A stretch of DNA of 36,611 nucleotides from a virus: positions 1-36,611 of IMG/VR virus record IMGVR_UViG_3300030329_004213. One strand, given 5' to 3'. Below the pieces are notes generated by a model that was given only the letters and a program-made list of their open reading frames with translations, ran no database searches and was not told where the DNA came from. Made by a program: the position numbers and the translations under genes. Every line of letters starts with the position of its first letter. Positions within the stretch are counted from its first letter, which is position 1. This document shows, piece after piece, positions 130 through 32,406 of the stretch.

Positions 130-2937
130 TTACAACTTTCTCCATTTTTCTATGTGCACCTTACGAAATCCAGGTCTGATTAAACCTTTTATCAAATACC
201 AGTCACCAATCCTACCCTCCTCAACAATTGGCTTACCAATCTTGGGATATTTGAAACGGTCTATGCCACATATGATTGGACCTGTGTCGTCTTCAAACGT
301 CATATTCAACCAAAGGTTATGGGTCTCAACCCTGCGACCACCTCTCTTGGCTAAGTTGACGGTTTCGTTCATGTCTCTAAGGTTTTTCTCTTTTAGCTTA
401 CCAAAAAATACATACCGTCCAGGAGTGTCTGCGTCTAGGGTAGCAATGTCACTAATTTTAGATTTTATGTTGTGCTGTTGTGGATTTTCCTTTATGTGGC
501 CAAACTTACGCTCGCATTCAAAAATATCATCATAGGCTGTTGTTCCACTTGCTAGGAGTTTTTCTTGACGTGGTGTTAAAGGTTGTTTAAGATTACGACG
601 ATTAATTATGTCCTCTGCCATTTTGGGACCAATGCCCTTGATGCCCAGCAACCCACCAATCAACTTTCCGTTTTGCACCGACCAGTTGATCTCAGATTTT
701 TGCTGATCGTAGGGCAGATATTCTAATCCCTCTCGGACAACCTCCCTTAACAACCTAACTGCTTGCTCGTCGTCTTTGACGTTGCGGAGACATGCAGCAG
801 CAAACTCTAACGGAAACTTAGACTTCAGTACACAGCACCAATAACTAACCAGCCCATAGCTAATGGCGTGACTGCGGTTAAATGCCCATGAGCCCATTGT
901 GTTTATGTGTTTCCAAATGTTCTCTGCATCCTGTTCGGATATTCCATTTTCCTCCGCACCTGCTTTAAACTTTACCCAATATTGGTCGAAAAATTCTTGC
1001 CCTAAACTTTTACTCATCGCTTTGCGTAATGAACTAACGTCTTCCCAGCTCAGCTTGCCGATCTCCCGACCGATGGTCATAACCTGTTCCTGATAAACAA
1101 CAACCCCATGCGTTACTTTTGTTATCTTCTCGGTGAGTGGGTGTAAGTATTCTGTAGGAGTTTCTCCGGTGTGACGTTTGATGTATTCCGTAGTGCCTCC
1201 AGAAACTAATGGTCCAGGACGACCCAATGCGGTAATTGCAGCAATGTCCTCGAACTTGTGCACCTTCATTTGGTGGGTAACGGATTGTAAGGCATAGCCT
1301 TCAAACTGGAATATGCCTGTGTACTTTTCGTCATTCAAAATGGCAAATGCTTTTTTATCGTCTAGTGGGTAATTTAAAAGTTGGTCTCTGGTCCACCCAA
1401 CCTGATCTAATATGTCTTGTATTACAGACAGTGTGCGTAAACCCAAAGCATCTATCTTCAATAGATTAAGACTTTCAGCATCTTTTTTATCTATCTGGGC
1501 TGCAGTGGTCTGGGCACTAACCGAGCAATACTTATGAACAGGATCTTCGGTCACCAATATGGCAGCAGCATGAACACCGTTGTGTCGAGCGTGATTTTCC
1601 ATATCAGCTGCAATGGCCATCTGTGGGTATTTTTCCAGCACTTTTTTGCCAACATCTAAATCGTTAAATGTATCTAGTATACAAAGTGCTGATCGGGCAT
1701 CTCCACTACTTCTTTCAATAATCGCTCCCTTCAGATCGTTCACCTCCCATGCTGGTACTCCTAGCTCCTTGGCAACTTCGCTAATGGTTATCTTGGCTTT
1801 GTAACGACTCACCGTTCCTAGCCTAGCAACTTTTTCTTCGCCATATTTATTCTTCAAATATTCAAAAACCATCTCCCTGCGATCATCCTGAAAGTCTATA
1901 TCAATATCCGGCAAGTCTTCCCTTGTTATATCTATGAATCGCTCAAATAAAAGGTCGTGCTCTATAGGGTCAATATCCGTTATGGCTAACAGGTAGCAAA
2001 CCAAACTCCCAGCCGAAGAACCTCTAGCTGGACCAACCAGCATGTGCTGTTTCGCATATTTGATCATATCCGCTATGACAAAAAAATAATCCTCAAAATC
2101 CTTTTCTTTAATTAGCTCTAATTCACGTTTTAAGCGTTTTTTGTACACAGGGTTGTTTAAGTCTACCTTGCGGTCTTTTGCACCTTGTAAGCACAGCTCT
2201 CGTAAAGTCTTAGAGGACTTAAATCCTATCATTTGTGCAGTGGGCAGTGTGGCATTACATTGCTCTGCAATTTTGTAGGTGTTCTCGATGGCTTCCTCAG
2301 GCAACCAAGGCACAGCATCCCTCAGCTCCCACTCGTCTAACAGATGCATTGCTTTGCTTCGCTCTGTGCGGTTGCGTCCAACCAGCACTTCATAAGCCTT
2401 GCGATCTGTGGGGTAAGGAAATAGATTGTCACTGACAGCCACAGGGCGAAAGTGTTTGTCGTGACAAAATTGCAAAGCCTTCCGGCTACTGGTTGGACTG
2501 AACTCTATATATAAATTATTTTTGCGAGGCAGTAAACCCCACTCTGGAGTTGTACCACTCAGAATTATCACGTTATCACTAACATCAAACAGATCAACAT
2601 AAGAAATTCTGGGAACGTAATAAAATTGCTCCTTAGATGTGCTTTTCGTAACCAGCTTGTAAATCTCTTGTAAACCATCATTGTTCCTCCCCAAAAATGT
2701 CATCAAGTTAGTTGCCTGCTTGATACGTTCTGTTGCATCCTCTACAACTGCCAGCTCTACACCAAATATTGGTTTCTTACCTGCTTTGGAGCAGTGCTTG
2801 TTAAAGGGCACATGTCCCCAAGTGCCACCAAAATCTGTTATGCCTATGGACTCTTGTTCACAGTTTTGTATAATTTTTTCAACCGACCCATAAGCTGTTC
2901 GGAAAGAATACTCTGTGCGCACTTTTAGGTTAATCAC
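130..2937 (-). CDS. dnaE: DNA polymerase III alpha subunit-like replicative polymerase (DnaE family)
   Basis: Replicative family C DNA polymerase. From the N-terminus there is a PHP domain with ITDFGGTWGHVPF, a palm with PDIDIDF (about 343-349), the third catalytic aspartate in LKIDALGLRTL (about 496), HARHNGVHAAAIL, GRPGPL, helix-hairpin-helix GIKGIGPKMAEDI and a C-terminal OB-fold. It has 935 residues against about 1,160 in E. coli, so the tau-binding tail is probably missing. The first PHP metal motif reads KVR instead of HxH, so PHP nuclease activity is doubtful; proofreading probably comes from the exonuclease just upstream. I chose GTG 2937: GGAGG lies six bases before it and GTGA overlaps the exonuclease stop. 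An upstream GTG at 2961 would place that site inside the gene. Confidence 0.95.
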   Translation of the reverse strand: MINLKVRTEYSFRTAYGSVEKIIQNCEQESIGITDFGGTWGHVPFNKHCSKAGKKPIFGVELAVVEDATERIKQATNLMTFLGRNNDGLQEIYKLVTKSTSKEQFYYVPRISYVDLFDVSDNVIILSGTTPEWGLLPRKNNLYIEFSPTSSRKALQFCHDKHFRPVAVSDNLFPYPTDRKAYEVLVGRNRTERSKAMHLLDEWELRDAVPWLPEEAIENTYKIAEQCNATLPTAQMIGFKSSKTLRELCLQGAKDRKVDLNNPVYKKRLKRELELIKEKDFEDYFFVIADMIKYAKQHMLVGPARGSSAGSLVCYLLAITDIDPIEHDLLFERFIDITREDLPDIDIDFQDDRREMVFEYLKNKYGEEKVARLGTVSRYKAKITISEVAKELGVPAWEVNDLKGAIIERSSGDARSALCILDTFNDLDVGKKVLEKYPQMAIAADMENHARHNGVHAAAILVTEDPVHKYCSVSAQTTAAQIDKKDAESLNLLKIDALGLRTLSVIQDILDQVGWTRDQLLNYPLDDKKAFAILNDEKYTGIFQFEGYALQSVTHQMKVHKFEDIAAITALGRPGPLVSGGTTEYIKRHTGETPTEYLHPLTEKITKVTHGVVVYQEQVMTIGREIGKLSWEDVSSLRKAMSKSLGQEFFDQYWVKFKAGAEENGISEQDAENIWKHINTMGSWAFNRSHAISYGLVSYWCCVLKSKFPLEFAAACLRNVKDDEQAVRLLREVVREGLEYLPYDQQKSEINWSVQNGKLIGGLLGIKGIGPKMAEDIINRRNLKQPLTPRQEKLLASGTTAYDDIFECERKFGHIKENPQQHNIKSKISDIATLDADTPGRYVFFGKLKEKNLRDMNETVNLAKRGGRRVETHNLWLNMTFEDDTGPIICGIDRFKYPKIGKPIVEEGRIGDWYLIKGLIRPGFRKVHIEKWRKL

Positions 2938-3467
2938 AAATGGCCCTCCTTTTTGTACCACTTTATAATTTCTATCATCGCTAAAACATCCTCCACCGAT
3001 CTGTGTGCCTTTGCATGCTCTTTTTCTGTTACCTCCTTGTAGATATCTCCGAGCTTGCGTTTTCTCCCCCAGATATATTCACCAATCTCAATCGTGCAGA
3101 TGTGTTCGTATGGCCATGGGAAACAGTTCATTTTATCATACCGCTGAAGTTCAAATTTTAATATTTTGCGGTCAAACGGTAGATTGTGAGCAACCAATGT
3201 TTTCTCTCCCAAGAAAAATTCACACAGCTTAGTGTAATGAGCCATGAATGGTTTCTTGTCCTTCAGATCATCATCCGTGATGCCTGTAATTTTAGTAATC
3301 TTTGGGTCGAGCTGTTGCTGTGGGTTGACCAAAAACTCTAGCCGATCAATCTCTTTCAAATCATCGTCCAGCTTGATGGCACCGAACTCAATAATCTTTG
3401 GTTGGGTGACTAGATCAGAACCCTCCGCTTTGGGCAAACCTGTTGTTTCCAGATCAAACGCTATCAT
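2934..3467 (-). CDS. dnaQ: DnaQ-like DEDDh 3'-5' exonuclease
   Basis: Probable proofreading exonuclease. Exo I is FDLETTG (D5, E7), Exo II is AHNLPFD (H94, D99) and Exo III is HRSVED (H155, D160), giving a complete DEDDh set in 177 residues. It is a single domain, like the catalytic half of the bacterial epsilon subunit, and no clamp-binding tail is obvious. Its stop overlaps the polymerase start as GTGA, which suggests translational coupling and a working polymerase-exonuclease pair. Its own start overlaps the end of the preceding gene by 14 bases and has only a weak AGAGAG ribosome site. A role in RNA or general nucleotide trimming cannot be excluded, but the pairing favours proofreading. 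Confidence 0.93.
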   Translation of the reverse strand: MIAFDLETTGLPKAEGSDLVTQPKIIEFGAIKLDDDLKEIDRLEFLVNPQQQLDPKITKITGITDDDLKDKKPFMAHYTKLCEFFLGEKTLVAHNLPFDRKILKFELQRYDKMNCFPWPYEHICTIEIGEYIWGRKRKLGDIYKEVTEKEHAKAHRSVEDVLAMIEIIKWYKKEGHL

Positions 3468-5318: not shown

Positions 5319-5966
5319 TTAATCCTTGTTTAAAGGTTTTGCCATGCTTGGTGCTGCCCACTCGGTTGGTGTAAGGAAAGGTTTTGCCCAAGGATGAGTA
5401 TTAACCACTTCTTTGACCATTAACTTAAATACTTCTTGATATTCCCCCTGAGCACGTGGAGATAGGCGAGACTTGGCCATTTCGTGCAGAGTTCTTAAGC
5501 TAAATTTTGCCACAATGTTTGTATGTATGTTTGTGGGCAATATACCACGAGCGTCTTCTGCAGGAACTAGCTCTCGTAGAGCTTGGTAACATTCATTTAT
5601 CTGCTTCATCGCTCTGTCGTATATAGCTCTGCTCCACTTGTCTTTCATAATTCTATCGGGTGTGTAATAGGTAAACCCAGCCATGTCAACAGTACGTTGC
5701 GACTGCTGTGCGTATGAGCCTTGGCGAGTTCTTACAAACTGATGGGTAAACCCTCTGCTAACCTCTCTTACATCAAATGTATAATCAATAAACTCCCAAG
5801 AAGATTTTATTGTGTTTAGCATGTAGTCTAGCTCTGCTTGTTTTTTCTCTTGATCCCACTCGGAAACTTTTTGATAAGCATCCTCGTCGTTCATAAGCCT
5901 AGTGTTTTTTGTAAACAACAGTAAGTTTACTGCGTCGCTTGTTGCGTTGATTAATTTAACTTTCAT
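5319..5966 (-). CDS. thyX: Flavin-dependent thymidylate synthase ThyX
   Basis: Makes dTMP from dUMP using methylene-tetrahydrofolate and FAD/NADPH. The 215-residue protein carries the ThyX signature as RTRQGSYAQQSQR (79-91), a variant of RHRxxSxNxxSxR with Thr for His and Ala for Asn. It also has NIVAKFSLRTLHEMAKSRLSPRAQGEYQ, matching the C-terminal nucleotide-binding helices that end in an R-x-x-x-x-QxE/QGEYQ block. Length fits the family. ATG 5966 is chosen for AAAGGA upstream and the ATGA overlap with the methyltransferase-like gene. Supplying thymidylate during host shutdown is the usual phage role. The flanking flavin-type and methyltransferase-like genes make a modified-base pathway worth considering. 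Confidence 0.92.
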   Translation of the reverse strand: MKVKLINATSDAVNLLLFTKNTRLMNDEDAYQKVSEWDQEKKQAELDYMLNTIKSSWEFIDYTFDVREVSRGFTHQFVRTRQGSYAQQSQRTVDMAGFTYYTPDRIMKDKWSRAIYDRAMKQINECYQALRELVPAEDARGILPTNIHTNIVAKFSLRTLHEMAKSRLSPRAQGEYQEVFKLMVKEVVNTHPWAKPFLTPTEWAAPSMAKPLNKD

Positions 5967-6478
5967 TGATTTTTTCCTTTCTTTATTAATTGACCTACTA
6001 ACATCAAATTTCTTCCAACCACACCCATTATACATTGCGATTGTATTTTTAGCTCCCATTCAAAACCTGTTGTTTCTGGTTTATAATATGGGTTATTCAT
6101 TAGCATTTTGAATGATGACTCTGTCCAAAAAGATTTATGAGTAAGATCTTGATATGCTAATTCTGATTTGTAGTACGGTACACCATATTGAAATATGCCA
6201 TCATACATCAAAACTCTTTGCACTTCTTTTAAAAACAATATGGCATCTTCACCTGTTAAGTGCTCCATAAAATGGTAACAATGGATAATTGATACCTCGC
6301 CATCGTTTGATGGTATTAGATTTTTAGGGAACTCCCAACTTGGTAATCCAAGATTCATGTCTGCTGAAGATTTTTTTGTACCACTTTCTCCAATACCAAT
6401 TGTAACTCCGGATTTAGGTTTATCCAAAGCACCTATGTCTCGGTCAAGTGCTAACTTTGCTAAAAGTCTATGATCCAC
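5963..6478 (-). CDS. SAM-dependent methyltransferase-like protein
   Basis: A 171-residue protein resembling the Methyltransf_11-type class I fold: DMNLGLPSWEFP, then SIIHCYHFMEHLTGEDAILF with the motif IV-like I-x-H-x-x-x-x-E-H-L pattern, then EVQRVLMYDGIFQYGVPYY in place of the usual ExxRVLKPGGxLxIxVP. The expected glycine-rich SAM loop at the N-terminus is reduced to GVTIGIGESGTKK, so the fold is partial or diverged. Substrate unknown. GTG 6478 is the start, with AAAGGA upstream and an 11-base overlap with the oxidoreductase-like gene; the stop overlaps thyX as ATGA. Such short enzymes are sometimes sugar- or small-molecule-specific. Confidence 0.7.
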   Translation of the reverse strand: MDHRLLAKLALDRDIGALDKPKSGVTIGIGESGTKKSSADMNLGLPSWEFPKNLIPSNDGEVSIIHCYHFMEHLTGEDAILFLKEVQRVLMYDGIFQYGVPYYKSELAYQDLTHKSFWTESSFKMLMNNPYYKPETTGFEWELKIQSQCIMGVVGRNLMLVGQLIKKGKNQ

Positions 6479-15265: not shown

Positions 15266-16658
15266 ACCTGGACGGGATTTTTACGATAATTGGCACATAG
15301 ACGCAATATCTGACCATTTACAGGCAGTTGTAGAGGGGAAGATCCGCAGACTGATCATAAACATTCCACCAAGGCACATGAAATCAATTTCGGTGGCAGT
15401 GGCACTTCCTGCATGGACTTGGGCTGTTCAGCCAGAGAAACGCTTTTTGTTTGCCAGCTACGCCTCCAGCCTGTCGATTAGAGACTCGGTTAAATGCCGA
15501 AGGCTTATAGATTCTCCTTGGTACAAAATGCACTTTGGAGATATGTTTGAGCTGACCACTGATCAGAATCAGAAGCAACGGTTTGAGAACAGCAAGACTG
15601 GTTACCGGATAGCAACCTCAGTGGACGGAGCGTTAACTGGTGAGGGTGGAGACATTATTGTGATTGATGATCCGCACAATGTTAGAGAGGCAGAGTCGAG
15701 CACTGTCCGAGAGGGTGTTCTTGAATGGTGGGATCAAGCCATGCAAACTCGCCTTAATGACCCGAAGACTGGAGCGTTTGTTCTGATAATGCAACGAGTG
15801 CATGAACAAGACCTTACTGGGCACATACTCGCTAATGATCTAGAGGGCGAGTGGGATCATCTCTGCCTTCCAGCCAGATACGAGATCGGTCATCCGACAC
15901 CTACTCGCTCAAGTTTGTTTTTTACTGACCCTCGTACTGAGGAGGGCGAGTTGCTTTGGCCAGAAAGGGTTGATAGTAAAACTATGAGTGTGTTGGAGAA
16001 AAGTTTGGGCAGTTATGCTTCGGCTGGTCAACTGCAGCAACGCCCAATGCCTAAAGGTGGCGGAATATTAAAAAAAGAGTGGTGGGTGCCATGGGAAAAT
16101 GAGTATCTTCCTGAAATTGAGTATATACTACAAAGTTGGGACACTGCTTATGGGACAAAGGAGCAAACATCTTATTCTGCTCGGACTACTTGGGGAGTGT
16201 TTAGGGAGAAGGGTCAAATTAATGCAATTGTTTTAGATATGTGGTATGATAGGGTAATATATCCGGAGTTACGCAAAATTGCTCAGGAGAGCTATGACGA
16301 ATATGAGCCAGACGCAGTGTTAATTGAAAAGAAAGCCAGTGGCCAGAGTTTAATTCAGGATTTACGTATGGCAGGAGTTCCTGTTATTGCCTATACACCT
16401 GACCGAGATAAACAGGCTCGTGCTCATGCCAGCTCTGCTTTGCTAGAGGATGGCAGAATATTTTATCCTTCTAATCGTAATTGGGCAAAAGACTTAATAG
16501 ATATTTGTGCAGCATTTCCTGCAGGAGACAATGATGATATTGTGGATACTTGCACACAAGCATGGCTGAGGTTACGCAAAGGATGGTTTGTGACACACTC
16601 GGCTGATTATGATGGCGAAGACGAGTTGCCAAAGAAAAGGATGACAGTGTATGGCTGA
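15150..16658 (+). CDS. terL: Terminase large subunit
   Basis: DNA-packaging ATPase and nuclease. Walker A-like PPRHMKS (73-79), Walker B IIVIDDPH (169-176) and the RNaseH-like nuclease start LQSWDTAYG (D331), with DDIVDTCTQAW near the end supplying further acidic residues. 502 residues, typical length. ATG 15150 overlaps the small subunit by 116 bases; the in-frame ATG 15216 (Met23) would shorten the overlap and begins MRRSLREF. Both have weak ribosome sites. Its stop lies inside the portal start region (the two overlap by eight bases). Confidence 0.95.
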   Translation: MTSQRLNEYLSTLSLTEIRAEKMRRSLREFTKSSWPTIEPGRDFYDNWHIDAISDHLQAVVEGKIRRLIINIPPRHMKSISVAVALPAWTWAVQPEKRFLFASYASSLSIRDSVKCRRLIDSPWYKMHFGDMFELTTDQNQKQRFENSKTGYRIATSVDGALTGEGGDIIVIDDPHNVREAESSTVREGVLEWWDQAMQTRLNDPKTGAFVLIMQRVHEQDLTGHILANDLEGEWDHLCLPARYEIGHPTPTRSSLFFTDPRTEEGELLWPERVDSKTMSVLEKSLGSYASAGQLQQRPMPKGGGILKKEWWVPWENEYLPEIEYILQSWDTAYGTKEQTSYSARTTWGVFREKGQINAIVLDMWYDRVIYPELRKIAQESYDEYEPDAVLIEKKASGQSLIQDLRMAGVPVIAYTPDRDKQARAHASSALLEDGRIFYPSNRNWAKDLIDICAAFPAGDNDDIVDTCTQAWLRLRKGWFVTHSADYDGEDELPKKRMTVYG

Positions 16659-19083
16659 GAATGATAATATTCCCTTTGCAGAGGGAGCACCACCGGATGA
16701 TTTACAGATTGAGGTTTTAGGCAATGATGTTTTGATTGGAGATCCTGATTCTGATTTACCGCCAGAAAAAGATTCCGCATTTGATGATAACTTGGCTGAG
16801 GACATGGATCACAAAACGCTTGATCGGATTGGTAGTCAGCTCATGGGCTATTACAACAACGACCGAGAATCAAGATCCGAGTGGGAGAATCGTTACAAGT
16901 CTGGGCTGAAGACATTAGATGTTGAGGGTGGTTTAGAAGAAGGCGAAGAAGAACGAGCCAGTCGGGGATTGAGCACTGTTATTCACCCGATGATTGCCGA
17001 GGCTGCAACCCAGTTCAATGCTCGTGCTATTGCCGAGCTGTATCCTTCGGGTGGTCCAGTTAAAACAGTTATCATTGGCGAACCAAACGAAGAACTAGAA
17101 GACCAAGCTCGCAGAGTTAGAGAGTTTCTGAACTACCAAATTACTCAGGAGATGCCGGAGTATTTCCCTGACCTAGATCAGATGCTTTTTCAACTCCCGT
17201 TAATTGGTCATACATTTAAAAAAATATGGTGGGACGCTAACCTCCAACGCCAACGTAGCATGTTTGTGAGGGCAGAAGACTTTGTTGTTTCGCCAGAGAG
17301 TAATGATTTGAGAACATCGGTTCGTTACACTCATGTTATAAGGATGCCAAAAAATGAATATAACAAATATGTTCAAAATGGTTACTATATGGCTGTCAAA
17401 AGCGACCCAGACAATGCACAGTATGGTGACGACACAGTGGGTCAGATTGAAGGTGTGGATAAGTACGGTGAAGGAACGCAAGATAAAATAATGACGTTGC
17501 TGGAGATGCACGTTTATCAATCGTTTGAAGACGAGCAAGAAGAGGACGAGGTGGCGTTGCCGTATGTTGTTACAATAGATGCGGATTCAGAAAAAATTGT
17601 AAGTGTGCGAAGAAACTGGCACGAAGACGACGAGAACAAAGAACGTCGCAACTGGTTTGTTAGCTATAAATTTCTTCCAGGGATAGGGTTTTACGGTTTT
17701 GGACTTTTTCATCTGATTGGTGGTTTGGGTAAGGCTGCAACTGGTGCATTGAGAGCTTTGCTTGACTCGGCTAGTTTTGCCAATATGCAAGGTGGCTTCA
17801 AGTTAAAGGGCAGAGTGTCCGGTGGTGATTTAGAAGTTAATCCTGGAGAGTTTGTAGATTTAGACGCAACTGTTGACGACATAAATAAAAGCATTATGCC
17901 GTTACCGTTTAAAGAGCCCAGTGGCACTTTGTTTCAGTTGCTAGGGTTTATTGTTGAGGCTGGGCAGAGGTTTGCAGCCACAGCAGATTTAAATGTTGGA
18001 GATGTTAACCCAAACGCTCCAGTTGGTTCTACGGTTGCTTTAATAGAGCAAGGCAGTAAAAGTTTCAGTGCTATTCACAAACGGCTTCACCACTCTCAAG
18101 GAGAAGAGTTTAAACTGTTAGCACAATTAGACGCAGAGTATATGCCGGAGCAGTTAGAGTTTAGCGTTGCAGGAGCCAATGCTTTTATTTATGCTAGAGA
18201 CTTTGACGAGCGAGTGGACATTGTTCCGGTCAGTGACCCGAATATATTTAGCACAGCACAACGCATTGCCCAAGCACAGGCGATTCTTGAGATGGCAAAT
18301 AGTGCTCCCGAACTCCACGACCGATACAATGCTTACAAGCGAATGTACGAAGCAATCCGGATACCCAATATTGAGGAAGTTTTAAAAGAGCCGGACGAGG
18401 CTGTGAGGCTTGATCCCATTGATGAGAACATGTCGGTGATGTACGGCAAAGCGATCCGAGCTTTTCCTGAGCAAGATCATCAGGCACACATCTTGGTTCA
18501 CATGCAGTTTATGCAAGATCCGTCGCTGGCTGGCAACCCTGTTGCTCAACAAAGTATGGGACCAATACTAACTGCTCACATTGCCGAGCATATTGCGTTG
18601 CTGTACCGTCAACGAATGCAAGAAAGTATCGCAATGCCGTTGCCTAATTTGCCTAATTTACGTGATCCGCAATTTAAGTTTGAGGACATTGATCCGGAAA
18701 CCGACATGATGATTAGCCAGAGAGCTGCACAAGTGGTTCAACAGGCACCTCAAATGCAAGCCATTGCCGGGATTGCTAATATGGGAGGTCAACAACAGAG
18801 AGATCCATTACAATATGCGCAACAACTTGCCGAGCTTGAGGCTCAATCACTACAACAACGGACACAAGCTCAGATTGCTGCCGACCAAGCCAAAGCACAG
18901 TCCGACATTCAGATTAAACAAGCCGAAGCCCGTCAAGACATGGAAATAGACGCAGCCAAGGCACGAGCCGACCTTGAGGCAAAGGTCAGGAAATTAGAAG
19001 CTGACTTACAACTGGAGCGTGAAAAGAACGCTGCAAAAATACAAATGGAAGCAATGAAAAATGTACAACCTCCCACCAATTAA
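16651..19083 (+). CDS. Portal protein
   Basis: Forms the dodecameric ring through which DNA enters and leaves the head. At 810 residues it matches the long portals of short-tailed phages (P22 gp1 is 725). Landmarks: RSEWENRYKSGLKTLD, GLSTVIHPMIAEAATQFNARAIAELYPSGGPV, LPLIGHTFKKIWWD and FRA-like EDFVVSPESNDL. The C-terminal 120 residues (from about 690) are helical and rich in Gln, Ala and Lys, a likely barrel. The N-terminal 50 residues are acidic. ATG 16651 overlaps the terminase stop. The last 23 bases overlap the next gene. Confidence 0.94.
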   Translation: MAENDNIPFAEGAPPDDLQIEVLGNDVLIGDPDSDLPPEKDSAFDDNLAEDMDHKTLDRIGSQLMGYYNNDRESRSEWENRYKSGLKTLDVEGGLEEGEEERASRGLSTVIHPMIAEAATQFNARAIAELYPSGGPVKTVIIGEPNEELEDQARRVREFLNYQITQEMPEYFPDLDQMLFQLPLIGHTFKKIWWDANLQRQRSMFVRAEDFVVSPESNDLRTSVRYTHVIRMPKNEYNKYVQNGYYMAVKSDPDNAQYGDDTVGQIEGVDKYGEGTQDKIMTLLEMHVYQSFEDEQEEDEVALPYVVTIDADSEKIVSVRRNWHEDDENKERRNWFVSYKFLPGIGFYGFGLFHLIGGLGKAATGALRALLDSASFANMQGGFKLKGRVSGGDLEVNPGEFVDLDATVDDINKSIMPLPFKEPSGTLFQLLGFIVEAGQRFAATADLNVGDVNPNAPVGSTVALIEQGSKSFSAIHKRLHHSQGEEFKLLAQLDAEYMPEQLEFSVAGANAFIYARDFDERVDIVPVSDPNIFSTAQRIAQAQAILEMANSAPELHDRYNAYKRMYEAIRIPNIEEVLKEPDEAVRLDPIDENMSVMYGKAIRAFPEQDHQAHILVHMQFMQDPSLAGNPVAQQSMGPILTAHIAEHIALLYRQRMQESIAMPLPNLPNLRDPQFKFEDIDPETDMMISQRAAQVVQQAPQMQAIAGIANMGGQQQRDPLQYAQQLAELEAQSLQQRTQAQIAADQAKAQSDIQIKQAEARQDMEIDAAKARADLEAKVRKLEADLQLEREKNAAKIQMEAMKNVQPPTN

Positions 19084-19264
19084 TCCAGCAGCATTCTCAG
19101 GCAACCAAGCTCCTTCGCAACTACCAGCACAGCCCATGGACGCTGAAATGTCGGAATATCTGCTTAGAAAGATAGAGGAGATAAAACGTAGAATGGGTGC
19201 TGAGGGAGCAAGTCTCGGTGCTTTTAGTAGTATAATAAAAAATTTAGGAGAACAAGATGGCTAG
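19061..19264 (+). CDS. Small hypothetical protein after portal
   Basis: A 67-residue protein overlapping the end of the portal gene. It starts MYNLPPINPAAFSGNQAPSQ, proline-rich, then has a basic helix EYLLRKIEEIKRRMG and ends with NLGEQDG. Family unknown; small proteins like this are common between portal and scaffold genes. No ribosome site is obvious, so translation may depend on coupling to the portal. Its stop overlaps the next start by eight bases. Confidence 0.6.
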   Translation: MYNLPPINPAAFSGNQAPSQLPAQPMDAEMSEYLLRKIEEIKRRMGAEGASLGAFSSIIKNLGEQDG

Positions 19265-19541: not shown

Positions 19542-20138
19542 TTGGCCAGACTAATTACCAAAGTAATAAAGAGTCTTCTGCCCAAAGACTTAGGATCTTT
19601 AGGCAATTTAGAAGAGGCTAAAAGTGCAGGTGCTCTTGTGCCTCTGGACAAACAGGAAGTTGTCCCTTCTCGTAGGGAGTTTTTAAAAAAGGCAGGAAGC
19701 ACAGCAGTTCAAACCGCATTGCCTCGTGGGGCATTAGCAACTTTAGCAAAAGAAGCAATTAAAACTCCTTTAGCAAAAGAAGCAATTAAAACGCCCTCTC
19801 TTCCTAGTTTAAGTTTAAGCGGTTTAAGTTCTTTTAAAAATAAAATGGATCAGTTAGTTGAAATGGCAGTTGATGAAGGTCGGGAGATGGACTCGGAGCT
19901 TATGATGGACATGGATGAGGCTGATTTTATTAAAGATTTATTAGAAATGGAGATAGGAGATGTAGAAGATTTTGAGGGGAGTTTTCTCGAAGATATGGTT
20001 GATGAGCTAAGAGAAAAATATCCTGAGGCAACTGATCAAGAAATATTTGATAAATTTGGATCACTTTTTTCTGGTGCTCCTAAAATTTTTGCTAATGTTA
20101 TACCTCAATCAAAATTAAAGTATGATGCTGGTGATTAA
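19542..20138 (+). CDS. Leader-bearing paralogue 1 with Tat-like SRREFLKK motif
   Basis: A 198-residue protein starting at TTG 19542. Residues 1-70 closely match those of the next gene: a basic amphipathic start (MARLITKVIKSLLPKDLGSL), KSAGALVPL, then VPSRREFLKKAG, followed by STAVQTALPRG. SRREFLKK fits the twin-arginine consensus SRRxFLK, and the mildly hydrophobic stretch after it could act as a weak signal region. A 9-residue unit, LAKEAIKTP, follows twice. The C-terminal 100 residues are acidic and unlike anything I know. It is not similar to the second paralogue beyond residue 70. A shared leader with exchangeable cargo is one reading; true Tat export is unproven. Confidence 0.7.
   Translation: MARLITKVIKSLLPKDLGSLGNLEEAKSAGALVPLDKQEVVPSRREFLKKAGSTAVQTALPRGALATLAKEAIKTPLAKEAIKTPSLPSLSLSGLSSFKNKMDQLVEMAVDEGREMDSELMMDMDEADFIKDLLEMEIGDVEDFEGSFLEDMVDELREKYPEATDQEIFDKFGSLFSGAPKIFANVIPQSKLKYDAGD
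19742..19795 (+). repeat. 27-bp tandem duplication encoding LAKEAIKTP
   Basis: Two consecutive in-frame copies (19742-19768 and 19769-19795) of a 27-base unit, identical but for one base, each encoding LAKEAIKTP. It lies at the border between the shared leader and the divergent C-terminal part, suggesting a recent slippage at the junction. Absent from the second paralogue. Confidence 0.9.
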
Positions 20139-20908
20139 TGGCTAAAATTACCAAAATAATAAAGACTTTATTGCCCAAAGATTTAGGTTCTTTAGGCAAT
20201 TTAGAAGAGACTAAGAGTGCAGGTGCTCTTGTACCTTTGAAAAAGCAGGAGTTTGTCCCTTCTCGCAGGGAATTTTTAAAAAGGGCAGGAAGTACAGTAG
20301 CTCAAACCGCATTGCCTCGTGGAGTGTTGACAACTTTAATTGAAAAAGGATTAGAGCAGGAGCCAATTATTGGACCACCAGGAGAAATTAAATCCTTTGG
20401 TGGGACAGTATTCAAGAGCTTTGATCAAATGATGAATTTTCTCAAAGACCTCTGGGAGGTAAGAACAGGAGATCCGATCTCTAAAAAAGAGCTTTTGGAA
20501 AAAGACATGGCTGAATATTTAAACTATTTTGAAAATAACGATACTTACCACCAATCACCCGAAGCATTCTCCAAAGGAGCGAACATAGAGGTGCTTGACA
20601 CTATTGAGTATGATGAAACAGAGGATGGACGAGAGCTAACAAAAGCTGTTGCTGATGTCAAAAAGAAATACTTTGGTGACAAAACAGTTGATTATGGTGG
20701 TGTTGCTGGTGATGATATAACGACAGAAGCATTTCGACTTGAGCATGGTCCCGATGCTCCAGAAAATGAGGAAGACGCTATTATAGAGTGGATAAAAAGC
20801 AAAGGCATAGAAGAAACACCTTATTACAAAAAACTTAAATCATTTAGAAATATTACATTCGATGATAAACTTGAATGGATTCGAGAACAAGTTAAAAAGA
20901 AAAAGTAA
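20138..20908 (+). CDS. Leader-bearing paralogue 2 with Tat-like SRREFLKR motif
   Basis: A 256-residue protein. Its first 67 residues (MAKITKIIKTLLPKDLGSL, KSAGALVPL, SRREFLKRAG, ALPRG) match paralogue 1, and the DNA over about 190 bases is also close, so the duplication is fairly recent. The remaining 190 residues are different: a helical region about 85-130, then DIEYDE-type acidic stretches, YYKKLKSFRNITFDDKLEWI and a lysine tail. No enzyme motif. The start TAATG overlaps the stop of paralogue 1. Position after the portal favours a virion component; Tat-like export in the host is a second possibility. Confidence 0.7.
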   Translation: MAKITKIIKTLLPKDLGSLGNLEETKSAGALVPLKKQEFVPSRREFLKRAGSTVAQTALPRGVLTTLIEKGLEQEPIIGPPGEIKSFGGTVFKSFDQMMNFLKDLWEVRTGDPISKKELLEKDMAEYLNYFENNDTYHQSPEAFSKGANIEVLDTIEYDETEDGRELTKAVADVKKKYFGDKTVDYGGVAGDDITTEAFRLEHGPDAPENEEDAIIEWIKSKGIEETPYYKKLKSFRNITFDDKLEWIREQVKKKK

Positions 20909-21042
20909 TGCCAGTCTATAAAGTCAAAAACGGTTATCGTTGGGGAAAATCAGGTAAAATATATAAAACCCGAAAACAAGCCGAAAAACAAGGTCGAGCA
21001 ATTTACGCATCAGGATATAAAAATGGTAGCAAGAAAGTTTAG
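20908..21042 (+). CDS. Tiny basic protein 1 (AIYASGYK motif)
   Basis: A 44-residue protein starting MPVYKVKNGYRWGKSGKIY and ending AIYASGYKNGSKKV. It is lysine-, tyrosine- and glycine-rich. I recognise this small family from head-gene regions of marine phages; the AIYASGY ending is common there. Its start overlaps the previous stop (TAATG) and its end overlaps the next gene. Function unknown; DNA-binding is plausible from charge. Confidence 0.75.
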   Translation: MPVYKVKNGYRWGKSGKIYKTRKQAEKQGRAIYASGYKNGSKKV

Positions 21043-21211
21043 AAAAGTTGCAAAAACTAAAAAAGGAGTTCCTAAGAGCTATCTCTCGGGAGCAAGGAAC
21101 AAAAAAGCAAAAGAAAAAGAAATTTTATCAACAAGAGAAAAGTACAAAAAGGGTCAATACATAAACATTAAGAAAGTGAGCGAGAGTCGTGCCAAACAAG
21201 CCAAAACCTAA
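21023..21211 (+). CDS. Tiny basic protein 2 (KKGVPKSYLSG motif)
   Basis: A 62-residue, strongly basic protein: KTKKGVPKSYLSGARNKKAKEKEI then a lysine-rich helix with TREKYKKGQYINIKK. The KGVPK-x-Y-x-x-G signature recurs in small marine-phage proteins of unknown function. It overlaps both neighbours. No membrane segment or cysteine. Confidence 0.7.
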   Translation: MVARKFRKVAKTKKGVPKSYLSGARNKKAKEKEILSTREKYKKGQYINIKKVSESRAKQAKT

Positions 21212-21440
21212 AGTAAGCAAAAGTGATGAAAAATTTTTAAAAGATAAAGCTAAAAATAGCAAATTTACTTATGGTCAGCTGAAAAATGTTCTGAACCGAG
21301 GCAAAGGTGCTTATTTGAGCAGTGGTAGTAAAAATGTGAGTATGACTGCTTGGGCTAGAGGCAGGGTTAATAGTTTTGTGAGTGGTAAGGGTGGTGCGAG
21401 AAAAGCTGACGCAGATTTATTGAAAAAGAAGAAAACATGA
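21189..21440 (+). CDS. Tiny basic protein 3 (WARGRVNSFV motif)
   Basis: An 83-residue protein starting at GTG 21189. Features are KFTYGQLKNVLNRGKGAYLSSGSK, then VSMTAWARGRVNSFVSGKGG, then DADLLKKKKT. The W-A-x-x-R-V-N-S-F and final D-x-D-L pattern resembles DUF5824-like phage proteins. Function unknown. It overlaps the genes on either side by 23 and 4 bases. Confidence 0.72.
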   Translation: MPNKPKPKVSKSDEKFLKDKAKNSKFTYGQLKNVLNRGKGAYLSSGSKNVSMTAWARGRVNSFVSGKGGARKADADLLKKKKT

Positions 21441-21589
21441 AAAAAGGACTATACGCAAACATACACGCAAAGCGTAAAAGAATCAAAGCTGGGTCTGGTG
21501 AGCGTATGAAAAAACCAGGAGCTAAAGGCTCACCAACAAAGGCTAATTTTAAATCAGCAGCAAAAACTGTTAGGAGAAAACGATCATGA
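21437..21589 (+). CDS. Tiny basic protein 4 (MKKGLYANIHAKRKRIK)
   Basis: A 50-residue, highly basic protein. MKKGLYANIHAKRKRIKAGS followed by KPGAKGSPTKANF is a pattern I associate with many marine phage and cyanophage genomes, near capsid genes. No known activity. ATGA overlaps join it to the genes before and after, so the run is translated as a unit. Confidence 0.8.
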   Translation: MKKGLYANIHAKRKRIKAGSGERMKKPGAKGSPTKANFKSAAKTVRRKRS

Positions 21590-21738
21590 AAAAATCCGTA
21601 CAAGCACCAAAAGGTTTCCACTGGATGAAATCTGGTAACAGTTATAAGTTAATGAAAAATCCGGCAGGTGGTTACAAACCGCATAAGGGAGCAAGCACTA
21701 AAGCAAGTTTTGAAATTCAAAAGGTGCACAAAAGTTAA
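21586..21738 (+). CDS. Tiny basic protein 5 (YKLMKNPAGGYKPHKGAS)
   Basis: A 50-residue basic protein with HWMKSGNSYKLMKNPAGGYK, HKGASTKASFEIQKVH. It resembles another very small marine-phage family with a conserved tail KVHK. Probably translated by coupling (ATGA with the previous gene, TAATG with the next). Function unknown. Confidence 0.78.
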   Translation: MKKSVQAPKGFHWMKSGNSYKLMKNPAGGYKPHKGASTKASFEIQKVHKS

Positions 21739-21995
21739 TGGCAGAGTATAAAGGCAAAAAAGTAAAGCTCAACAACCCTCGAAGAATTAGAAAGGGGGAA
21801 ACCAGCTATGGGAAAAAGAAAAGCGTGGTTTACGTCATGGATGGGGATAGGGTGAAGCGTGTGACGTTTGGTGATCCGAATATGCGTATTAAGAAAAACC
21901 AAAAAGGTCGTAGGAGTAATTTCCGCTCAAGACACAACTGCGATAATCCTGGTCCAAAAACAAAGGCACGTTACTGGTCGTGCAAGGCTTGGTGA
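21738..21995 (+). CDS. Conserved small protein with FGDPNM, RHNCDN and RYWSC motifs
   Basis: An 85-residue protein I know from marine phage genomes. It has KGKKVKLNNPRRIRKG, VVYVMDGDRVKRVTFGDPNM and RRSNFRSRHNCDNPGP..ARYWSCKAW. Two cysteines, a histidine and a tryptophan are close together and could bind metal. The gene is usually near head genes, sometimes close to prohead-associated proteins; function unassigned. It overlaps the preceding gene and is followed three bases later by the ADP-ribosyltransferase-like gene. Confidence 0.8.
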   Translation: MAEYKGKKVKLNNPRRIRKGETSYGKKKSVVYVMDGDRVKRVTFGDPNMRIKKNQKGRRSNFRSRHNCDNPGPKTKARYWSCKAW

Positions 21996-21998
21996 GTT

Positions 21999-22661
21999 GT
22001 GGCTGGTGTTCTTAAAAAATTAGCAAAGGAAGGTATTGAGAATGCTTCTGACTTTTTAAAAAGTTTTCGCAAAAAGACCTATTACCATGTTTCACCAAAC
22101 CCAGATATTGAAAAATTTGAAGTCGATTACCCATCATCCTTTGGTGATAGAGCAACAAGAGGTGCCATATATTTTACATCAGACCCTACATATGCTGAAG
22201 ACATACTGGAAGAATTAGAAGAAGCCAGATACTCATTTGATGAGCTTGGAGATAAGGAATTTGAACCTTATACAACCTACCCTGTTAAAATAAAAAAAGG
22301 AAAAATATTTGATTTTACAAATAAAAAGCAAATGGAAAAATTAGAAACTAATTTAAGATCTGCTTTTTCAAAAAAAAATTATAGAGATTATGCTTGGCTT
22401 CAATATGTTAATGAAATTGGTGAAGGAAATTACAAATATCTAGAAGATCCAGATGTACAAAAAGTTCTTAAAAAATTAGGCTTTAGAGGATATAAAACGA
22501 GTGAGCCAGGAACAGTTGGATTGTTTTACCCTGAAGATGTAAGGTCTATATTTGGCAAGTTCAACCCTGAAGATGCAAAATCAGGTAATATATTAAAGGC
22601 AGTTGTGCCTGTAGGTGGATTAAATTTATTAGGAGCAACTAATGGCGAAAGCGAAAATTAA
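21999..22661 (+). CDS. ADP-ribosyltransferase-like protein (polyvalent ART type)
   Basis: Probable NAD-dependent mono-ADP-ribosyltransferase. From residue 28: YYHVSPNP, then GAIYFTSDPTYAEDIL (55-70, the Y-F-x-x-D-x-x-x-A block of ART-PolyVal proteins), YPVKIKKGKIFDFTN (94-108), KKLGFRGYKTSE (158-169) and GLFYPEDVRSIFGKFN (174-189). The order fits the small ART domains of phage polyvalent proteins. A clear catalytic glutamate near the end is not obvious. It starts at GTG 21999. The N-terminus (MAGVLKKLAKEG) is basic and amphipathic and the C-terminus (VVPVGGLNLLGATNGESE) is glycine-rich and then acidic. The host target is unknown. Confidence 0.72.
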   Translation: MAGVLKKLAKEGIENASDFLKSFRKKTYYHVSPNPDIEKFEVDYPSSFGDRATRGAIYFTSDPTYAEDILEELEEARYSFDELGDKEFEPYTTYPVKIKKGKIFDFTNKKQMEKLETNLRSAFSKKNYRDYAWLQYVNEIGEGNYKYLEDPDVQKVLKKLGFRGYKTSEPGTVGLFYPEDVRSIFGKFNPEDAKSGNILKAVVPVGGLNLLGATNGESEN

Positions 22662-22833
22662 AAAAGTAGCACAGGCAGAAATACGAGCAGCAAAAAGTTT
22701 TTTAGAAAAGCGAGGAATAAAGTCCAACGAGATTAGTCCTAAAAAGTTTGCTCAATTGGCCAAAAAACTCGATAAAGGCTTTCAAGAAGTATTGCAAATC
22801 CTTGCTGCCACCCTTTCCGCAGGTCAAGTGTGA
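22642..22833 (+). CDS. Small basic helical hypothetical protein
   Basis: A 63-residue protein overlapping the end of the ART-like gene. MAKAKIKKVAQAEIRAAKSF, then LEKRGIKSNEISPKKFAQLA, gives two or three basic amphipathic helices. Such a short form could bind DNA or the virion interior. No family recognised. It ends three bases before the polyvalent gene start. Ribosome site weak; translation may be coupled. Confidence 0.6.
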   Translation: MAKAKIKKVAQAEIRAAKSFLEKRGIKSNEISPKKFAQLAKKLDKGFQEVLQILAATLSAGQV

Positions 22834-22836
22834 TTG

Positions 22837-25203
22837 ATGGCTAAGATTTTACCAGAATCTTTTTATAAAGTTTACCAAGAGTTTGTTGACCCTGTGGCCA
22901 AGGTTGTAGCTCCTGGATATAAGCCTCGACCAACCTCTATAGATTTACAACCTTTACCAGAACCAGAACCAGAACGTCCAGCAGAGCTAACCCAGTTGCC
23001 ACCAGCTTCTGTTCAAGACAAGACTCGTGATTTTGTTCGTAATGTAATAAGCAAAGCAGGAGTACCACGTGACAAAGCACAAAGTGCTGCTAGGTATATT
23101 GTTGGCGATATTAATGCACCTTTAACACAAGGTGGTATTGGAGCTTTGGACTTTACTCCGGCTGGTTTATTGTTTGCTGGTCAACAAGCATACCGAGATT
23201 TAAAAGAAATAGATCCTAAAGTGGATCCGATTTATTCACCTATTTTACCAATGGCTGATTTAGGGTTGTCGGCTGTCGAAGCAACTGTGCTGGGTAAGCC
23301 AATGGTTACAGCTCTGAAAAACCCTGCTGTAAAAGAGTTTGCAAAAAATTTATCAGAAAAACTCAAACCAACAGAATTAAAAGGTCCACTGTCACAATTA
23401 TCACGATTGAATCAACTTAACATAGTTCCTGGTGGTCCCAAAGGTGCTTTAACTAATTTGCCTTACCAAGACCAAGAAGGATTTTACAGCGTTGTACAGG
23501 AAACAATCCCGTTAATTAAACGTGGTAAGGGGACTGGGCAAGATTTTGTTAATGAGATGAGGTCGCAGGCTGTAAAACAAGGTTATCCTGTAAAGTCCTT
23601 CAATAATGAAATAAAAGCAATGGATCTAAATTTAGATTCTGAATTTACTAAAGAAAAATTTGCACAGCATCTTAATGATAAGAGATTTACGGTTAATGTT
23701 GTTGAAAACAGAGATATCGACGAAATCGAAGACCGAAACCAGCTTGAATTTGATCTTGACCGTGGAAAGCCAGGAGAAACTGCGATAATGATTCATGGTG
23801 AGCACGTCCTTACTATGGTCCGAGAGCGTGACCCCTCCAACCCCATGGACCGAAAGTATTATATAAAAACGACGGATGGGGAGCAATTGACAGATTTCAC
23901 TGCAAGCACTTTAGCAGAAGCTGGAGTCCAAGCAAGAATGTTTTTAGACAGAAAAGGGTACACGGATGGTGCCGCATCAACAGGATTAAAGTGGATGGAT
24001 GAGCATGCTTTGTCTGATCTGGTAGAGATTGATGAAGAAGAATATATGATGCCACCACAGCAAAATAGAAGAGAATTTTTAATAACTTCTCCTGAAGTTG
24101 GAGAATTTAAAAAAGGTCATTTTAACAAACCAAAGGATACTGTGGTGGCGAGTGTGATGGCTTCTGACTGGAATGCTCCTGTTAAAACAGCAGACGACAG
24201 TATTTCGCCAAACGCTACAATTTTATACGGTGATGAGCTGCAATCGGATCATGCAATGGCAAACAGCAGACGACAGCAAAGAACAAAAATTATGGAAGGA
24301 GATGTGTTCCCGTTGTTAGATGACCTTGAATATTTGGCAGAGGCATTTGAAATGTTAGGCGTAGATGCTCGCCACCACTCAAATTATCGAAAAGGAATTT
24401 TATATGCTGCGAAAAAAATTAAAAATGCGAGTATGGCGGAATCAAATCCTTCTGCACCATATTATACTGCTATGTTTGCCGATGACGTATCAGATGCAAT
24501 TACGCATATGATACGAAGTCTGAATGAAATTGTTTTGTCTGGAGATCAGATTGATGAGGTTTTAAAAAATCCAAGATTGAAGTCTATTATTTATGGCGAC
24601 AGCAAACTAACTCCTGACTCCTACGATCACAGAACCTTTCCCACGCTCGTTGGCTCGGCTGATTACACCAACAAGAATAGTTTAGCTGAGAAATTATCTT
24701 CTGCTGCAGCAAAACTAACTCAAATAGGAAGTGTGCACACAAAACCGAACTCCGATGTTCCCAATCCTTGGCAAGATACTTGGCACGAGTTGGCGTTGAA
24801 GAAACTTATGAGACAAGCAGTCGATGAAGGCTATACTTATGTCATGGTTCCTAAATCAGAAACTTTAGTTACAAAATGGAGTCCAGGTCCAGCAACAAAA
24901 GAAGCTCCCCAAGGAGCTTACAGAAAAATGTATCAAACGGTTTATGATCGTAAAATCCCTAGTGTTTTACAAAAGTATGCTAAAAAATATAATAGTGAAT
25001 TAACGGATGGGGAGATTGGGAGAGCTGATTTTGGAGACGAGCCAGGAATGGATGAATCAAACCTTCCGGTAACTCTGATTAGAATTACTCCAGAGATGAA
25101 AAAAGCTGTTAAGCAAGGACAACCCTTATTTAATATTGCTGTGGGAACCGCAGCAGGTGCTGGAGCTTTATCGACACTAGATCAAGAGGAGCCAGCTCAA
25201 TAA
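22837..25203 (+). CDS. Large polyvalent-type phage protein
   Basis: A 788-residue protein (ATG 22837; an in-frame TTG lies just before it). A region near 216-241 reads FYSVVQETIPLIKRGKG..FVNEM, like the polyvalent unit with a FYSxLxxxI helix and a WL-type helix. Around 427-475 comes GHFNKPKDTVVASVMASDW and LYGDELQSDH, the ExQSDW-like pair. Near 645-670 is WQDTWHELALKKLMRQAVDEG, and near 750-765 ITPEMKKAVKQGQPLFN. These blocks in this order match large phage polyvalent proteins (Pelagibacter phages and others); I know no firm function. The N-terminus is proline-rich. The C-terminus is a glycine-alanine tail then acidic residues. Probably ejected with the DNA. Confidence 0.75.
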   Translation: MAKILPESFYKVYQEFVDPVAKVVAPGYKPRPTSIDLQPLPEPEPERPAELTQLPPASVQDKTRDFVRNVISKAGVPRDKAQSAARYIVGDINAPLTQGGIGALDFTPAGLLFAGQQAYRDLKEIDPKVDPIYSPILPMADLGLSAVEATVLGKPMVTALKNPAVKEFAKNLSEKLKPTELKGPLSQLSRLNQLNIVPGGPKGALTNLPYQDQEGFYSVVQETIPLIKRGKGTGQDFVNEMRSQAVKQGYPVKSFNNEIKAMDLNLDSEFTKEKFAQHLNDKRFTVNVVENRDIDEIEDRNQLEFDLDRGKPGETAIMIHGEHVLTMVRERDPSNPMDRKYYIKTTDGEQLTDFTASTLAEAGVQARMFLDRKGYTDGAASTGLKWMDEHALSDLVEIDEEEYMMPPQQNRREFLITSPEVGEFKKGHFNKPKDTVVASVMASDWNAPVKTADDSISPNATILYGDELQSDHAMANSRRQQRTKIMEGDVFPLLDDLEYLAEAFEMLGVDARHHSNYRKGILYAAKKIKNASMAESNPSAPYYTAMFADDVSDAITHMIRSLNEIVLSGDQIDEVLKNPRLKSIIYGDSKLTPDSYDHRTFPTLVGSADYTNKNSLAEKLSSAAAKLTQIGSVHTKPNSDVPNPWQDTWHELALKKLMRQAVDEGYTYVMVPKSETLVTKWSPGPATKEAPQGAYRKMYQTVYDRKIPSVLQKYAKKYNSELTDGEIGRADFGDEPGMDESNLPVTLIRITPEMKKAVKQGQPLFNIAVGTAAGAGALSTLDQEEPAQ

Positions 25204-25955
25204 TGGCAAGAGTTACCAGAGCAATGAAGTTGCTTGCAACCCGACCAGAGCTGGGTAATTTCTTAGAGTCTATAAAGAATAAAGCTGATAAAAAGTTGGC
25301 TGAAAAGTACATAGATCCTCGTTTACAGCGTTTTATAGATGAGAATCCGGAGCTGGTAGATGTTTACGAACCCCAACAGCTTTACGATGCTTTTACTCCA
25401 ACAGTCACTCCAGAAGGCACAGTTGTACCATCACAAGTTGTTACCATCGCTCCGTCAGATTTTAGAAAACTCGCAATGCCTTTACCAGAGTCTGATCAGG
25501 CAAAAATGGACAATGCGTTGAGTATGATCGGTCAGGAAAGGCAAAAATATTTACTAGACTATATGCCTTTTTTGCGTTACAGTGTAACTCCTGAAGCACC
25601 AGCAGTTTACATTAAAGGGCATCAAGGTCGCCATCGCACTCGAGCCATGAGTGAGTTGGGTTATCCTTATGGTGTTTTTAAAATGAATCCTGATCAGAGA
25701 TTTATTGATTTTGAAGACCGATCAGCGAGAGATAAATTTTACCAATTACAAGAAAAGTTAAAAGACCTGCCTGTTGATACTCCTGTTTACGGTGAAAGGA
25801 TGCAGGCTTTGGACTTTGAGGATGCTATGGATCTGAACGAGTACAATCAAGCCATGGATAAAATATCTGAAGAACCACCTGTTGGTGTTTTAGGCCAGCT
25901 GATGAAAATTTTTGGCGTTGGTGGTTTAGGTGTTGGATTAACAAAAGACGAATAA
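25203..25955 (+). CDS. ParB-like nuclease-fold protein
   Basis: A 250-residue protein. The start MARVTRAMKLLATRPELG is basic and amphipathic. Residues about 139-153 are GHQGRHRTRAMSELG, matching the GxHxGRHR-type box II of ParB/Srx-like domains, after VYIK. The segment SDFRKLAMPLPESDQAKMD resembles the box I region (an L-x-P segment). Some ParB-like phage proteins are DNases; whether this one cuts is untested. The end, MKIFGVGGLGVGLTKDE, is glycine-rich with an acidic tail, like the two genes before it. It overlaps the polyvalent gene start-stop by one base. Confidence 0.75.
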   Translation: MARVTRAMKLLATRPELGNFLESIKNKADKKLAEKYIDPRLQRFIDENPELVDVYEPQQLYDAFTPTVTPEGTVVPSQVVTIAPSDFRKLAMPLPESDQAKMDNALSMIGQERQKYLLDYMPFLRYSVTPEAPAVYIKGHQGRHRTRAMSELGYPYGVFKMNPDQRFIDFEDRSARDKFYQLQEKLKDLPVDTPVYGERMQALDFEDAMDLNEYNQAMDKISEEPPVGVLGQLMKIFGVGGLGVGLTKDE

Positions 25956-31599: not shown

Positions 31600-32406
31600 G
31601 TGGTTAAATACGCAAAAGGCAAAAAATCAGTCGCTATGAGCGATATTAGTGGATTTAAAGTGCCGTATAAATCGTTGAAGACTACTTGGAAAGGTTTAAG
31701 AGTTGAGCCAGAGGAGTATGATAAAAAGCACCCTCAACTAAGACCTCCTAGGAATGTAATTGATGCAACATCACTCTTTAAGCCTAGACCGAGTTCTGAT
31801 CCTGATGATGTAAGTTTTTTTGTAGGTTATAATTATGGAGATATATTTACTGACCCTAGACTGCGTCCAGGAGTAGGAGTAAATGCTGTGGGTGGGGTTG
31901 GTTTTGACCCTAGAACAGATCTGCTTATATCTACGGACACAGAGCCAAGTGGAGTTGCAGGCACTGGAGCAATAGGAACAGAAACACCAGAGGCATCTAT
32001 AACTGAAACAGGGCTGGCTGGTACAGGTGCAGTGGGAACAGAAGTACTTGAAACATCTATCACTGAAACAGGAGTTGCTGCTACAGGTGCAGTGGGAACA
32101 GAAGCACTAGAGGCATCTATCACTGAAACAGGGCTGGCTGGTACAGGTGCAGTAGGAACAGAAGTCCCAGAGGCATCTATAACTGAAACAGGAGTTTCTG
32201 GTGCGGGAGCAATAGGGACAGAAACATTTGAAACCTCAATTACAGAGGTGGGAGTTGCTGCTACAGGTGCGGTTGGAACAGAAGTTCCAGAAGCATCTAT
32301 CACTGAAACAGGAGTTGCTGGTACAGGTGCGGTTGGCAGCGTTTCGATAGAAACAAACAGAGCTTGGGGTGAAGACACTTGGGGTTCTGGAACTTGGGGA
32401 CGTTAA
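31600..32406 (+). CDS. Conserved structural protein, long paralogue with 20-residue repeats
   Basis: A 268-residue protein starting at GTG 31600. Residues 1-85 match the upstream paralogue. After about residue 107 come six tandem 20-residue units (consensus EVPEASITETGVAGTGAVGT) plus a decayed one, and it ends NRAWGEDTWGSGTWGR, a tryptophan-glycine tail like that of some phage fibres. The regular alternation suggests a beta-repeat stalk. No catalytic motif. A virion fibre or spike that varies in length by repeat number is the best reading. It ends one base before the next gene. Confidence 0.7.
   Translation: MVKYAKGKKSVAMSDISGFKVPYKSLKTTWKGLRVEPEEYDKKHPQLRPPRNVIDATSLFKPRPSSDPDDVSFFVGYNYGDIFTDPRLRPGVGVNAVGGVGFDPRTDLLISTDTEPSGVAGTGAIGTETPEASITETGLAGTGAVGTEVLETSITETGVAATGAVGTEALEASITETGLAGTGAVGTEVPEASITETGVSGAGAIGTETFETSITEVGVAATGAVGTEVPEASITETGVAGTGAVGSVSIETNRAWGEDTWGSGTWGR
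31981..32340 (+). repeat. Six tandem 60-bp repeats inside the structural gene
   Basis: Units start at 31981, 32041, 32101, 32161, 32221 and 32281, exactly in frame, each coding for about 20 residues of the form E-x-x-E-(A/T)-S-I-T-E-(T/V)-G-x-(A/S)-(A/G)-x-G-A-(V/I)-G-T. A decayed unit precedes them. Differences are mainly at a few alternating positions. Confidence 0.92.

Follow-up and report, generated by a model that had tools for sequence, protein, structure and literature searches.

Shared terminal elements on portal-proximal proteins of a CRP-901-type marine phage suggest a capsid-targeting or ejection signal

The internal proteins of phage T4 have only an N-terminal leader in common, which directs their packaging before they are injected (PMC12373910), and in phage P1 the first ~30 residues of DarB, a large polyvalent-type protein, are enough to load a reporter (PMC9024508). 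In the relevant passages of Iyer et al. (2017), polyvalent proteins are predicted to be packaged and injected, and ART, PBECR and ParB-like domains are described beside portal and terminase genes; the passages of that paper on transmembrane segments, signal peptides and twin-arginine motifs do not describe shared end-tags (PMC5512222). The phage group analysed here likewise carries ART, PBECR and ParB-like domains in a head gene region. The P1 Dar proteins have no common consensus by BLAST, whereas here a consensus extends across many families. No report of such tags in CRP-901-type phages was found in the open-access literature.

The window, i.e. the whole 36.6 kb virus record that was analysed, represents a marine podovirus-type phage of the CRP-901 type, whose relatives are described as globally distributed (PMC10149686). 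Its portal gene (16651-19083 on the plus strand, marked + below; phrog_1216, E=7e-37) is about 72% identical to its counterparts in the Roseobacter phages CRP-901/902 and 43% identical to the one in pelagiphage HTVC023P, and forms the left border of the region under study, which extends to a GroES-like gene (at 26353), a scaffold-like gene (at 26728) and the major capsid gene (at 28688; PF25209, E=1.8e-16). The element that recurs in this region (GAL-type motif) is Gly-(Ala/Val/Ser)-Leu preceded by a hydrophobic residue; it lies in roughly the first 60 residues of a protein or in its last 45. A small conserved protein directly 3' of the portal (19061-19264, +) has the C-end motif SLGAFSSIIKNLGE, and a regex scan located LGAFSSI in it (19214-19234, +); its relatives have the C-ends LGAFTNLLRN or IGALNNLMKE, or MGALSAIADA near the C-end. 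The window also encodes a bacterial-type DNA polymerase III alpha (130-3467, minus strand; PF07733, E=5.9e-71), adjoined by an exonuclease gene (PF00929, E=8.2e-27), a ThyX-type thymidylate synthase (5319-6059, minus strand; PF02511, E=2.4e-36) and a tail-region ORF (31600-32406) with a run of near-identical GxxGTGAVGTExxEASITE-type repeats.

Two genes named here for a twin-arginine-like motif, RR protein 1 (19542-20138, +) and RR protein 2 (20138-20908, +), overlap at the stop of the former and the start of the latter. Their products begin with MARLITKVIKSLL and MAKITKIIKTLL, respectively, and share a module of ~75 residues, comprising the tag MAKITKIIKxLLPKDLGSLGNLKE, a stretch often with GALVPL, and SRREFLK..LPRGAL, followed by different C-terminal domains; RR protein 1 is an orthologue of L091:8001. 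The two N-ends are one homologous module and therefore constitute one observation, not two. The tag of RR protein 1 is MARLITKVIKSLLPKDLGSLGNLEEAKSAGALVPLDKQ (19542-19655, +). An HMM of the module (alignment A3) matched the two window sites and three tandem L091 paralogues with differing C-parts, and its tag part matched the starts of two proteins of relatives, one with PBECR5 (E=7.6e-9) and one of ART type (E=1.7e-4). In alignments A4 and A5 no segment was sufficiently conserved to be used in scanning the collection. Both RR proteins contain GAL-type motifs (AGALVPL, LGSLGNL), and the C-terminal Gly-hydrophobic-then-acidic pattern is absent from both.

The twin-arginine-like motif reads SRREFLKK in RR protein 1 (19668-19691, +) and SRREFLKR in RR protein 2 (20261-20284, +). 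Since SRREFLKK and RRDFLKRA match the Tat consensus, and a similar module is present in an otherwise different phage protein, the RR proteins might be genuine Tat substrates sent to the host periplasm, e.g. for blocking superinfection, with a module unrelated to virions. However, the RR pair is internal (residues 33-87) instead of near the N-end, the 15 residues that follow are weakly hydrophobic (KD 0.43-0.74, one charged residue), and the part upstream is a tag common to cargo without RR. The position of the RR pair and the low hydrophobicity downstream ruled out Tat export as the main reading, and we regard it as very improbable; the module is probably a further tag part in some cargos and not a working Tat export signal. 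The similar module mentioned above, TPMSRREFLKKAGNAALSQAAKGILP, belongs to a 360-aa protein (L105:7746-8828 / L110:3601-4683, contig 3300001844_000102) that adjoins a 1477-aa protein in an otherwise different phage; L107 and L108 have no ORF of at least 60 aa with an RR motif and were taken as chance matches. The RR proteins are separated from the ART-like gene by five small consecutive, very Lys/Arg-rich ORFs (21023-21995), which are conserved in L091.

The ART-like protein (21999-22661, +) starts with MAGVLKKLAKEG, forming a predicted amphipathic N-helix (muH z 1.7), and its C-terminal tail NILKAVVPVGGLNLLGATNGESEN (22587-22658, +) ends in GGLNLLGATNGESEN. It had no Pfam match and stayed below the curated score of ART-PolyVal (PF18760); the name reflects its position and its alignment with ART-PolyVal relatives. 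A clear ART-PolyVal member occupies the same place in L002 (L002:12300, E=2.5e-18), and the tails can be aligned. The ART alignment matched no PDB sequence, and the structure model (pLDDT 40) was unreliable and kept out of the fold search. The GAL-type motif is degenerate (GGLNLL); a relative (L013:10106) has LGALGAV. The polyvalent-type protein (789 aa; 22834-25203, +, with an ATG at 22837 as an equally likely start) had no Pfam or PHROG match and has relatives of 42-68% identity. It ends in GTAAGAGALSTLDQEEPAQ with the GAL motif AGALSTL, within a tail, PLFNIAVGTAAGAGALSTLDQEEPAQ (25123-25200, +), that is near-identical in four relatives. The start of the next gene (25203-25955, +) overlaps its stop. 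This gene encodes a protein with an N-helix (MARVTRAMKLLA), the motif GHQGRHRTRA and a C-terminal tail, GVLGQLMKIFGVGGLGVGLTKDE (25884-25952, +), which ends in GVGGLGVGLTKDE; the protein carries the motif VGVLGQL, and relatives end in SVAGVPLGALGGLPDEQN and SVFGALPFITGEQTDE. Residues H140, G142, R143, H144 and R145 are invariant in four relatives, and a Foldseek search with a structure model of moderate confidence (pLDDT 70-79 over part of the core) ranked sulfiredoxins best (probability 1.00, E about 0.007), followed by Noc and ParB, none below E=0.001. The fold search together with the GHxGRHR-type motif points to a ParB/Srx-type fold. Searches of phage records by tblastn with the ART-like, polyvalent-type and ParB/Srx-fold proteins returned no match.

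The ends quoted in an earlier note on this DNA are indeed present in the five proteins that start at 19542, 20138, 21999, 22834 and 25203. Of the four similar N-ends that the note had listed, two belong to the RR module, and those of the ART-like and ParB/Srx-fold proteins resemble each other at chance level only (Smith-Waterman 23). Its Gly/Ala-rich-then-acidic C-ends were recovered in three window proteins; GAL/GVL proved the sharper common element. The note had named relatives lacking the terminal pattern as a point against it: four polyvalent relatives keep the tail, a relative of the ParB-like protein (L091:14034) is without it, and in the polyvalent relatives from another phage group (L082:3876-6551, L095:36-2681) about 38 residues, containing two similar repeats (RGIGTLNEIARTMF, RGVSGLSSVARNMF), extend beyond the GAGALSTLDKEE tail.

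We gathered relatives by portal (80 loci), by polyvalent protein and by N-module, and defined as cargo the ORFs between the portal and GroES/scaffold genes, with the remaining ORFs of these loci as controls. For metagenome contigs the start codons are guesses, and families derive from simple ORF calls; many contigs are related, and counts are therefore given by family. With regexes tested on the same data in which the motif, three letters of little information, had been found, xG[AS]L occurred in the last 45 residues of 14/37 cargo families (shuffle mean 1.6, maximum 6) versus 4/81 controls (2.8) and in the first 60 residues of 12/37 (shuffle 3.6, maximum 7) versus 4/81 (3.3), and hydrophobic-G-[AS]-[LF]-x-[NSD]-[LIM] matched 30 times in portal-proximal ORFs, where 0.8 were expected, and never in controls. 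Less biased are a ranking of tripeptides and a split of isolate genes by cluster, the isolates being also among the loci. Without a preset pattern, GAL was the top tripeptide of the last 45 residues in all 200 draws of one member per family; it was present in about 12.9 of the 37 cargo families (shuffle mean 0.8) and in 1/81 controls, and the best tripeptide of any kind in shuffled C-ends reached at most 6 families. At the N-end (first 60 aa) the leaders were GAL (about 8.5, shuffle 1.2) and GVL (about 7.9), an enrichment weaker than at the C-end, with a shuffled best tripeptide of up to 8. Other letter orders of GAL were not enriched in cargo ends. The motif had a density of 4-6 per 1000 aa at the termini, compared with 1.1 in the middle part of these proteins and about 0.5 in control ones. 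It is not universal, since many portal-proximal families lack GAL at either end. At the C-end, GAL often has a Gly/Ala-rich stretch before it and acidic residues after it, and the Gly-hydrophobic-then-acidic tail itself was found in 12/45 portal-proximal families and 3/41 controls. The idea that unrelated domains carry common ends thus holds beyond chance across relatives, once the pattern is redefined as GAL-type. The N-ends, described in the earlier note as basic and amphipathic, exceeded control genes in amphipathicity (37 vs 81 families, p=7e-5) but equalled them in net charge (p=0.63, same families).

In the complete isolate genomes of CRP-901 and CRP-902, terminal xG[AS]L was restricted to two putative virion-cargo clusters (12/38 genes vs 0/94 others, p=8e-8; the two phages are closely related, so that orthologues count twice), namely the portal-proximal genes and a cluster that follows the tail genes (CRP-901 gp31-36, CRP-902 gp32-37). 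We infer from its position that the latter encodes internal virion proteins; CRP-901 gp32 is annotated as a virion structural protein, most genes of the cluster were unnamed by PHROGs, and none had a family match to known ejection proteins. Effector domains of the ART-PolyVal and PBECR type, as characteristic of polyvalent-type proteins, occur in the head gene region of relatives (e.g. PBECR5 in L002:9301, 3.9e-20).

Within single genomes, non-homologous cargo proteins may begin alike: among pairs from one contig, an N-end score of at least 45 was reached by 5/133 cargo pairs and 1/1517 control pairs. Four proteins of CRP-902 start with MANPxK (gp65, MANPVKGAIGQLGERVID; gp66, MANPVKGAISQLGENVIN; gp68, MANPIKGALGEIGKTAIG; gp72, MANPVKDLFSTLGRGVID), of which gp65 contains PBECR5 (2e-11) and gp68 GNAT (above cut-off); an ART-type and an RR protein of one relative (G3:13187 and G3:14254) have a common longer N-tag, and two divergent ART-type proteins of L075 carry a near-identical C-tail of ~20 residues. 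PBECR5 proteins have different N-ends in different phages. Such examples give the impression of systematic tag replacement, which is not demonstrated, because N35-vs-core divergence of orthologues equalled that of control genes (p=0.57; no excess N-terminal divergence). As in T4 Ip1, Ip2 and Ip3, a leader is thus placed on otherwise non-homologous proteins in CRP-902 gp65/gp66/gp68/gp72 and G3:13187/14254; the window RR proteins share this feature but are one family. Unlike in T4, the leader varies by phage lineage, a second motif occurs at the C-end, and the cargo has ART, PBECR and GNAT domains; packaging is shown for T4 and predicted here. No prohead protease of a recognisable type was found among the head genes scanned.

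Because the shared ends exceed chance and the motif genes are confined to two isolate clusters, these ends are best read as a common virion-linked signal, and we judge it slightly probable that the end elements are a capsid-targeting or ejection signal on the cargo of CRP-901-type phages. The locus between portal and scaffold encodes a changing set of effector-type proteins (in this group ART, PBECR RNase, GNAT, ParB/Srx fold, polyvalent protein), whose end elements may bind to some part of the head during assembly, i.e. the portal, the scaffold, the small portal-following protein or an internal core; the bound cargo would be loaded into the prohead and delivered with the DNA into the host. 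The addressing to the prohead is suggested by analogy with the T4 internal proteins and the P1 DarB leader, and the position beside portal and scaffold agrees with the published picture of packaged and injected polyvalent proteins (PMC5512222). The delivery step is probably the same as that of podovirus ejection proteins (T7 gp14-16, P22 gp7/16/20), and genes of the putative internal-virion-protein cluster in CRP-901/902 carry the end motif too; the cargo here consists of effector-type enzymes. A more far-reaching version seems doubtful: a two-ended address, composed of a lineage-specific amphipathic N-tag and a GAL-type element at either end, might be recognised by a head component without proteolytic removal on many unrelated effectors and internal virion proteins, so that new effectors would be recruited by gaining a tag. 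If the end elements are a capsid-targeting or ejection signal, the effectors that an abundant group of marine phages injects would be predictable from sequence, and a possibly protease-free packaging signal would stand alongside those of T4 and P1.

The tails might instead act on membranes. Membrane helices usually have a mean KD above about 1.6 over about 19 residues; the KD19 maxima of the three window C-tails (1.11, 1.23 and 1.43) lie below this value and do not indicate C-terminal transmembrane anchors, and GAL is also found where no hydrophobic stretch is present (LPKDLGALGNLKE; RERMGAGDMGALSAIADA), which together favour a recognition motif over membrane insertion. It therefore appears unlikely that C-tails and N-helices are membrane-active segments which, as in T7 gp14/gp16, aid ejected proteins in crossing the host inner membrane or residing in it and are not packaging signals, even though this main rival agrees with the hydrophobic, Gly-rich and then acidic tails and the raised amphipathic moment of the N-ends, and podovirus ejection proteins do possess membrane segments (PMC8954989). 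We give equally little credence to neutral or structural ends, i.e. low-complexity linkers that recombination has spread among adjacent genes, GAL being preferred without a shared function: N-modules shared by neighbouring genes are what local duplication predicts, and the orthologue swap test was negative, but GAL is enriched while its permutations are not, it is found again in diverged phages and in another gene cluster apart from the first, and it is nearly unchanged across the five polyvalent tails compared. Less probable still, the ends could link cargo proteins with one another or with the small portal-following protein, and packaging would proceed via the resulting internal core complex; in line with this, that small protein has the same C-end motif in several phages, and genes of the putative internal-virion-protein cluster carry it as well.

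No comparable shared cargo ends were seen in the L097-L104 contigs, HTVC023P, phiGT1 or the L082 contig, except for a different C-end motif in HTVC023P. This motif, RGxGAAxRGxxF, is common to unrelated HTVC023P proteins (L088 gp32 and gp51) and recurs in the small portal-following proteins of the L082/L095 phages (L095:5145-5351, L122:4003-4206); perhaps it is the tag of another group. The contig behind L001/L130-L133 (3300030098_002071, 77.7 kb) has two portal-like and two capsid-like genes and thus looks like two phages joined in assembly. A near-identical GPYASGY, possibly a further shared element, recurs in relatives, in several cargo proteins that are unrelated in other respects (L002:8541-9014; L002:9301-10689, L003:4553-5647 and L084:121-1194, at the C-end; L002:13733-16384, at the N-end).
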